From: Candidatus Methanomethylophilaceae archaeon
Lineage (GTDB): Archaea; Thermoplasmatota; Thermoplasmata; Methanomassiliicoccales; Methanomethylophilaceae
Length of the DNA: 64,000 nt
Direction of reading: 5' to 3'
Assembly: GCA_944322255.1 (NCBI GenBank)
Contig: CALUOK010000007.1
Span: forward strand, 26,003-90,002
Part shown: positions 63,453 to 63,758 of the stretch, one piece after another
Layout: the number at the start of each line of letters is the position of its first letter
Position numbering within the stretch: the stretch's first letter is position 1
Notes under the pieces: generated by a model
The model's input: only the letters and a program-made list of their open reading frames with translations
What the model was told of the DNA's origin: nothing
The model's database searches: none
Position numbers and translations under genes: made by a program

Positions 63453-63626
63453 TGGGGGCAGAGGGATTTGAACCCCCGTCAGCGGGTTTCCACTACGGGG
63501 GGAGCTACCCCCCGCGGAATCAATGAGTCATCGCTCCAGTTAGTCATCAACTACTGTCAGCAAACCCATTTTCAATCACTCTCAATAACTGGAGCCCGCC
63601 AGTCTGCCAGGTTAGCCTATACCCCC
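63453..63626 (-). tRNA. tRNA-Trp(CCA) with a long intron
   Basis: The 174-nt gene holds exon 1 (63589-63626) and exon 2 (63453-63487) around an intron of about 101 nt. Acceptor GGGGGTA pairs with TGCCCCC. Anticodon stem GCGGG pairs with CCCGC across the intron. The loop reads CTCCAG/A, so the anticodon is CCA with the intron after position 37. The T loop is TTCAAAT. The D stem is irregular, with one extra nucleotide in the D arm. Intron ends are certain only to about one base. RtcB, encoded at 10950, would ligate the exons. Confidence 0.9.
63488..63588 (-). ncRNA. Box C/D guide RNA inside the tRNA-Trp intron
   Basis: On the minus strand the intron has box C-like GTGATTGA, guide ATGGGTTTG and box D' CTGA, then box C' TTGATGA, guide AACTGGAGCG and box D ATGA. 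Guide 1 pairs with AAACCC of exon 2 so that the fifth base from D' faces C39. Guide 2 pairs with GCTCCAGT of exon 1 so that the fifth base from D faces C34. Both obey the N+5 rule for 2'-O-methylation. The same sites are guided by the tRNA-Trp intron of Haloferax. Box D deviates from CTGA. Confidence 0.8.
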
Positions 63627-63650: not shown

Positions 63651-63758
63651 TCACTTCTTGCGCATCTTTGCTGCTCTCTTTCTTCTTCTCATTTTCTTCT
63701 TGCGCCATTTCCAACGCTGGTTGCCGCGTTTCTTCCAGGCGCGCGAGCTTCTCTTCAT
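63651..63758 (-). CDS. rpl41e: Ribosomal protein eL41-like micropeptide
   Basis: A 35-residue, extremely basic peptide: MKRSSRAWKKRGNQRWKWRK followed by a KKMRRRKRAAKMRKK tail. The W-RKK-MRR-KR pattern matches eL41 (about 25 residues), with an N-terminal extension of about 12 residues. eL41 sits at the interface of the ribosomal subunits. It lies on the minus strand between tRNA-Arg and tRNA-Trp with only short spacers, so the three may share a transcript. Confidence 0.8.
   Translation of the reverse strand: MKRSSRAWKKRGNQRWKWRKKKMRRRKRAAKMRKK

Follow-up and report, generated by a model that had tools for sequence, protein, structure and literature searches.

The window, a stretch of 64,000 nucleotides from a Candidatus Methanomethylophilaceae archaeon, carries on its minus strand a tRNA-Trp(CCA) gene at positions 63453-63626 that is interrupted by an intron. 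Exon 1 (tRNA positions 1-37; 63589..63626, minus strand), defined from the sequence and an alignment of 110 loci from the order, holds C34 at 63592, and exon 2 (position 38 onward; 63453..63487, minus strand), defined from the sequence and cloverleaf pairing counts, holds C39 at 63486. The 101-nt intron (63488..63588, minus strand) sits between positions 37 and 38, as the original prediction had it in placing the split in the anticodon loop after position 37. ARAGORN at default settings missed the gene, and no Rfam match reached the gathering score at this locus; run with its intron option on the orthologue L107, ARAGORN did report an intron, at position 37. Just upstream of the tRNA gene lies a 35-residue open reading frame for the small ribosomal protein eL41/eS32 (63651..63758, minus strand; PDB sequence search E=0.0021, residues 1-32), and a similar frame stands upstream of tRNA-Trp in L107 and in L323. 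In the D-arm of exon 1 (63601-63617, minus strand) the D-stem pair 12-23 is C-A; among 34 aligned sequences, 18 have no pair here, 15 have G-C and one has U-A. The C-A of the window may be tolerated as a mismatch, or else it is a candidate site of C-to-U editing.

Read from its 5' end, and all on the minus strand, the intron comprises UGAG, box C, guide D', box D', box C', guide D, box D, CUCA, a hairpin and the 3' splice site. UGAG (63581..63584) and CUCA (63524..63527) form one helix, an outer stem outside the box C/D kink-turn (k-turn) in which three of the four pairs change on both sides across the alignment and 94.9% of cells are paired. Box C reads GTGATTG (63573..63579), its sixth base, U at 63574, lying opposite base 1 of box D, ATGA (63528..63531). 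The internal boxes are D' CTGA (63557..63560) and C' TTGATGA (63544..63550), the latter with U in place of the consensus purine. The anatomy and coordinates originally proposed for the intron were correct, with boxes C, D', C' and D all located in the sequence. Towards the 3' end, a hairpin with a conserved GGUMGCUCC loop (63496..63514) has double-sided changes in five of its seven pairs and 98.7% of cells paired. The loop of this hairpin is nearly fixed in the aligned sequences from the order and its stem covaries; GCUCC of the loop could pair with GGAGC of guide D.

Both guides match the exons of the tRNA in which they reside. Guide D (TAACTGGAGCG; 63532..63542, minus strand) pairs through an uninterrupted Watson-Crick run of 10 that bridges the 5' splice junction, taking in exon positions 31-37 and the first three intron bases, and its fifth base faces C34. 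Guide D' (TGGGTTTG; 63561..63568, minus strand) forms a Watson-Crick run of 6 across the 3' junction (the last two intron bases and positions 38-41), plus one G-U pair, and its fifth base faces C39. The targets thus lie in the same tRNA opposite the fifth base upstream of D and D', respectively, in agreement with the N+5 rule invoked in the original prediction. Dinucleotide shuffling of the intron, repeated 20,000 times, never yielded the C34 run of 10, yielded the C39 run of 6 in 142 cases, and in no case yielded both.

The gene is widespread in the order. A 191-nt query was matched by 118 of 147 order genomes (70 of the 74 better ones), mostly across the intron, a few of these matches being exon-only or cut at contig ends. 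A copy from the window's own genus (G100) is 98.9% identical over the gene; the gene recurs in L208 (Candidatus Methanomethylophilaceae archaeon BRZ_KP__bin43), where a few positions of the intron differ, and more distant copies occur in records titled Methanomassiliicoccaceae. A Methanomassiliicoccales host for the arrangement, as originally proposed, is supported. Covariation, suggested at the outset as a check on the precursor fold, bears the structure out: in 34 sequences chosen from the 110 aligned order loci, 97.1% of cells are paired, and 17 of the 32 precursor pairs change on both sides, compared with 8.9 in shuffles.

Conservation of individual elements was counted on parsed sequences. 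The 110 order loci reduce to 95 distinct sequences, of which L095 (truncated) and L107 (no boxes) were unparsed, leaving 93 distinct sequences from 108 loci. The parsing pattern demanded ACTGGAG, GA in boxes C and D, G at base 6 of box C' and G..GAA at the intron end; these features are consequently not findings of the 93-sequence count. Box D' is CTGA in 92 of the 93 and CCGA in one, so that its first base is C throughout, opposite the G fixed by the pattern in box C'. Guide runs were counted over 109 loci, with L095 skipped and L107 included. The C34 run is at least 8 in 108 of these, L107 being the sole exception, whereas the C39 run is at least 6 in 73 and at most 5 in 36. Of the 93 distinct sequences, 91 can still pair guide position 5 with C39, but only 61 have positions 2-8 of guide D' paired throughout, with G-U counted as a pair; C39 itself is retained in parsed sequences where its guide is broken. 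To judge from the alignment, the C34 guide is the strongly kept one of the two, and as 36 of 109 loci have a broken C39 guide, some members of the order may methylate position 39 weakly or not at all. The description of the intron as a dual guide accordingly holds for the window, where both guides are present, but not uniformly across the order.

These counts raise the question of whether only the C34 guide works, the D' guide being a decaying remnant kept in part by its overlap with the splice site. Besides the uneven runs, an A6-C40 mismatch recurs in several genera, and in the accessible part of PMC7668247 methylation of C39 in Pyrococcus furiosus is predicted and not detected. Decay sits poorly, however, with the near-constant pairing of guide base 5 with C39, with the invariant C at base 1 of D', and with the window's own D' duplex of 6 bp plus one G-U. 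In haloarchaea, moreover, inspection by eye finds U39 matched by A at the guide position. We regard loss of the second guide's function as unlikely, though it deserves to be kept in mind.

The terminal boxes depart from the usual motif. In a k-turn, sheared G-A and A-G pairs are followed by a closing pair, which joins base 6 of box C to base 1 of box D. Set against the published consensus RUGAUGA and CUGA (PMC4644070, portion available), GTGATTG and ATGA both differ in their letters, although the k-turn letters GA are present in both boxes. The original prediction recognized ATGA as D-like; the box is indeed there, but it is not the lone deviation, as box C, which went unmentioned, has changed too. 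ATGA is one half of a compensated pair with box C, in which the closing pair of the k-turn, usually G-C, would be U-A, a substitution likely to keep the same fold. A pattern without the GA requirement found NNGA at the N+5 place for box D in 109 of 110 order loci, reading ATGA in 90, AGGA in five, GTGA in five, TTGA in four, CTGA in three and CAGA in two, with none in L107.

The pairing of box C base 6 with box D base 1 was followed through 171 loci, comprising the order loci, the class loci and 13 named ones, nearly all of them from Thermoplasmata. The pair is U-A in 133, C-G in 13, A-U in seven, G-C in seven, U-C in nine and G-A in two, and is thus Watson-Crick, in four types, in 160 loci. 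Nine of the 11 unpaired cases are U-C, in which box D is back at C. The seven G-C loci are five from family f23, an Aciduliprofundum record (L160) and L215, whose record title is Thermococci. In the 34-sequence alignment the same pair is U-A in 24, A-U in three, C-G in three and unpaired in four, and never the consensus G-C. Twelve of 19 distinct combinations are Watson-Crick against a shuffled mean of 5.3, a value reached by 101 of 100,000 shuffles; the neighbouring pair, box C base 5 with box D base 2, covaries as well: with U-U and G-U counted along with Watson-Crick, 16 of 19 combinations fit, compared with 11.6 in shuffles, and 315 of the shuffles reached 16. These shuffles ignore shared descent, and the same pair types recur in different families. 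In one sequence, L103, the inner motif changes from U-U to C-C on both sides. Two contigs enter twice, as L127/L329 and as L171/L316, in the 171 loci and in 48 units, which leaves the 19-combination test unaffected. Excluded from the count were L323, L368 and eight loci of family f12. Also outside it are L339, L340 and L342, which fell outside the class-locus script parse and by eye read ATGATT/ATGA, ATGATC/GTGA and ATGATC/GTGA, respectively, and the family f20 loci L365 (ATGATT/ATGA by eye) and L377 (ATGATA/ATGA by eye, unpaired).

Simple decay of box D to ATGA is ruled out by these data, as base 6 of box C changes along with it. A broader version of the same idea, in which L7Ae would no longer recognize the changed boxes and this family would carry the intron as a non-functional relic, draws on the departure of both GUGAUUG and AUGA from consensus (PMC4644070, as far as its accessible text goes); the paired nature of the changes and the retention of the C34 guide across the order make it highly improbable, and a true relic would be expected to resemble the guide-less intron of L107. 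The box C/D motif is usually defined by fixed letters, and here it behaves as a structure in which both strands change together. Searches based on letters may therefore miss guides with compensated boxes.

Taken together, the evidence makes it probable that the tRNA-Trp intron is a box C/D RNA predicted to guide 2'-O-methylation of its own C34, and probably also of C39, before splicing, through a likely U-A k-turn. The intron would bind L7Ae, Nop5 and fibrillarin, with L7Ae presumably recognizing a terminal k-turn closed by U-A instead of G-C, and the complex would direct methylation to the two cytosines of its own precursor. The genome of the window (G000) encodes all three partners, with matches to fibrillarin (E 2.6e-70), Nop5 (7.1e-54) and the L7Ae family (1.1e-27), and has a match to the splicing endonuclease as well. 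Each exon could pair either with the other exon and the intron ends, as required for splicing, or with the guides, and guiding most likely precedes splicing, given that each of the two guide duplexes extends across a splice site. For the free precursor, the fold of minimum energy differs from the guide form; single-strand folding models neither k-turns nor bound proteins. The parsed introns end in GTGGAA (82), GAAGAA (5), GAGGAA (3), GCGGAA (2) or GCAGAA (1), the pattern having demanded G, one to three bases and GAA. In the canonical bulge-helix-bulge register (a 4-bp helix and two 3-nt bulges) C34 faces a base of the intron end (63488-63493, minus strand, in the window) that is U, A or C in all 93 and never G, so one of the four helix pairs is mismatched in that register. 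The available part of PMC7668247 names S. acidocaldarius, H. volcanii and T. kodakarensis as species with reported Cm34 in their tRNA-Trp.

That a conserved intron of this kind might serve splicing alone, by means of a bulge-helix-bulge and a helper hairpin, with its likeness to box C/D RNAs a by-product, has some appeal because introns persist elsewhere without boxes: one of similar length in G030, the genome that carries L107, and one of 15 nt in G262. Family f12, which has no recognisable boxes C and D, may be read in the same way. Partner proteins, however, were not found in these two genomes (fibrillarin and Nop5 in G030, Nop5 in G262; see below), the covariation of boxes and k-turn is located outside the splice-site helices, and shuffled introns never attained the C34 match. 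A role in splicing only is thus very doubtful.

Self-guiding introns in tRNA-Trp have reportedly been known since 2001. In Haloferax volcanii the pre-tRNA-Trp intron is described, in the accessible portions of PMC7994747, PMC4090602 and PMC7714728, as a box C/D dual guide for its own positions 34 and 39, and the window shares with it the intron in tRNA-Trp, the two guides and both target positions. The mechanism in Haloferax is presented as trans-acting or intramolecular on the pre-tRNA (PMC7994747, a review, available in part), and the intron is dispensable in the laboratory (PMC4090602, PMC7714728, both in part). Position 39 is U in H. volcanii, going by its description rather than its sequence, and C in the window. 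Haloarchaeal loci such as L112 pair, by eye, a box D of CCGA with a box C of GGGACGA, where the window has ATGA with GTGATTG. Pyrococcus sR50 corresponds to the pre-tRNA-Trp intron according to the available text of PMC7994747, and like the window it is, by description only, a tRNA-Trp intron with C34 and C39 as predicted targets (P. furiosus). For tRNA-Trp of P. furiosus the available text of PMC7668247 gives C32, C34 and C39 methylation as predicted, with Cm34 observed in some tRNAs and the other listed sites not observed. In Methanomicrobiales (Methanoculleus L123 and L176, by eye) both guides are present and C39 is faced by G, as in the window, but the boxes, RTGATGA and CTGA, make the usual G-C pair. 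By eye, then, guide position 5 is A in haloarchaeal loci, where the tRNA has U39, and G in Methanomicrobiales, where it has C39.

The original prediction had pointed to C39 in place of U39 as a difference from Haloferax. As a novelty this was not borne out: the P. furiosus prediction (PMC7668247, in its accessible part) and the Methanomicrobiales loci dispose of it, and C39 in this tRNA is ordinary. What seems to be new is the compensated U-A pair of boxes C and D, the self-guiding tRNA-Trp intron itself being known from Haloferax and Pyrococcus. Among the papers listed in a literature search on Methanomassiliicoccales and Thermoplasmata tRNA introns, k-turn covariation, compensatory changes and absence of fibrillarin or Nop5 (PMC4153887 and PMC7608942 included), none, to judge by titles and the opening parts of abstracts, reports the box changes or loss of fibrillarin or Nop5; subscription literature lies mostly outside this coverage.

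The sole order locus to have lost its guides is L107, from genome G030 of genus g5. Its 96-nt intron occupies the same site in a gene with the same neighbours, tRNA-Arg and the small eL41-like frame, and it has no box C and guide runs of 2 and 2 nt. In a search of the 147 order genomes, fibrillarin was matched in 135, in 132 of them above the cut-off, and was not found in any of the four g5 genomes. Nop5 was likewise not found in any of the four and was present in six of six other genomes asked. The L7Ae family was found in all four, in the most complete (G028) as the weaker of two family hits only, and so was the splicing endonuclease EndA. A tblastn search over 750,507 bases of G030 recovered L7Ae (E 9e-44) and EndA (E 6e-31) and no Nop5 or fibrillarin better than E 0.48, whereas the same Nop5 and fibrillarin queries hit their counterparts in loci of other genera at 2e-57 or better. 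All g5 genomes are drafts, with a completeness of 84, 96, 79 and 79%, and of the four only G030 yielded a tRNA-Trp. In G027, G028 and G029 it was not found by DNA match, by the tRNA family list (which also missed the gene of G030) or by a tRNA scan of the fetched stretches; in G028 the matches to query R1, which has matches in 270 of 283 class genomes with other tRNAs among the weak ones, were to other tRNAs and included no tRNA-Trp.

Absence of fibrillarin from a single draft genome is weak evidence, as 11 of 143 genomes outside g5 also lack it above the cut-off, including G004 (96% complete) and G111 (91%), and intact C34 guides are present in six of these 11 (G003, G004, G007, G065, G107 and G111), no tRNA-Trp having been recovered from the other five. 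Four misses in four g5 genomes, given 15 misses in 147, have a chance of about 7e-5 by arithmetic that ignores relatedness. A published survey, in the part accessible, finds fibrillarin in 140 of 148 archaea and leaves loss or missing data open for the remainder (PMC7608942). An intron kept in related genomes without its guides had been named beforehand as the result that would count against a guide function. G030 is the one instance in the order, and it belongs to a genus in which fibrillarin and Nop5 were detected in none of four genomes; because these proteins were not found in g5, the loss of the guides in G030 speaks more for a guide function than against it.

Outside the order, the tRNA-Trp of G262 (family f24) has the 15-nt intron mentioned above, which carries no guides, and no Nop5 match was found in this single, 86% complete genome, Nop5 being present in all 19 other class genomes asked. 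The introns of family f12 (L367, L369 and L371-L376) retain CTGGAG and a C'-like GTGACGA or ATGACGA. In these eight loci the place of box D is taken by CGCG or CGCC, box C is not recognisable, and Nop5 is present in all three f12 genomes asked; loss of recognisable boxes is thus not confined to genomes without the partners. As a tentative proposal, which we rate somewhat short of probable, g5 may have lost the whole enzyme for guided 2'-O-methylation (fibrillarin and Nop5) and f24 at least Nop5, their tRNA-Trp introns shedding the guides and surviving as bare spliced inserts, while in most other members of the class the letters of the k-turn would be free to vary so long as the closing pair is kept. 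If so, the methylase maintains the box C/D cargo and not the intron, and archaea can live without this methylation. The two lineages would then be natural knock-outs in which to ask, with no need of engineering, whether guided methylation is dispensable and whether it is the guide that keeps the intron in place, and their genomes suggest a possible fate in nature for an intron that is dispensable in the laboratory in H. volcanii.

A scan of genome contigs gave at least 119 stretches, a figure from which no distribution follows. A second match in G326 (L323) was considered as a free-standing guide RNA and then discarded, because 141 bases of it duplicate the first copy exactly and it stops at a run of N, where the assembly breaks off. 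In Micrarchaeota (L131, L144, L149, L168 and L185) and Desulfurococcales (L143, L146 and L158) the tRNA-Trp introns are shorter and carry a C34-type guide, with no second guide evident by eye. In L365 and L377 of family f20 there is, by eye, an apparent second insert in the T-loop of tRNA-Trp besides the guide intron. Finally, a contig titled Atopobium sp. UBA1382 (L177, DBQY01000003.1) carries a tRNA-Trp of the Methanomassiliicoccales type, from which it follows that this bin probably holds an archaeal contig.
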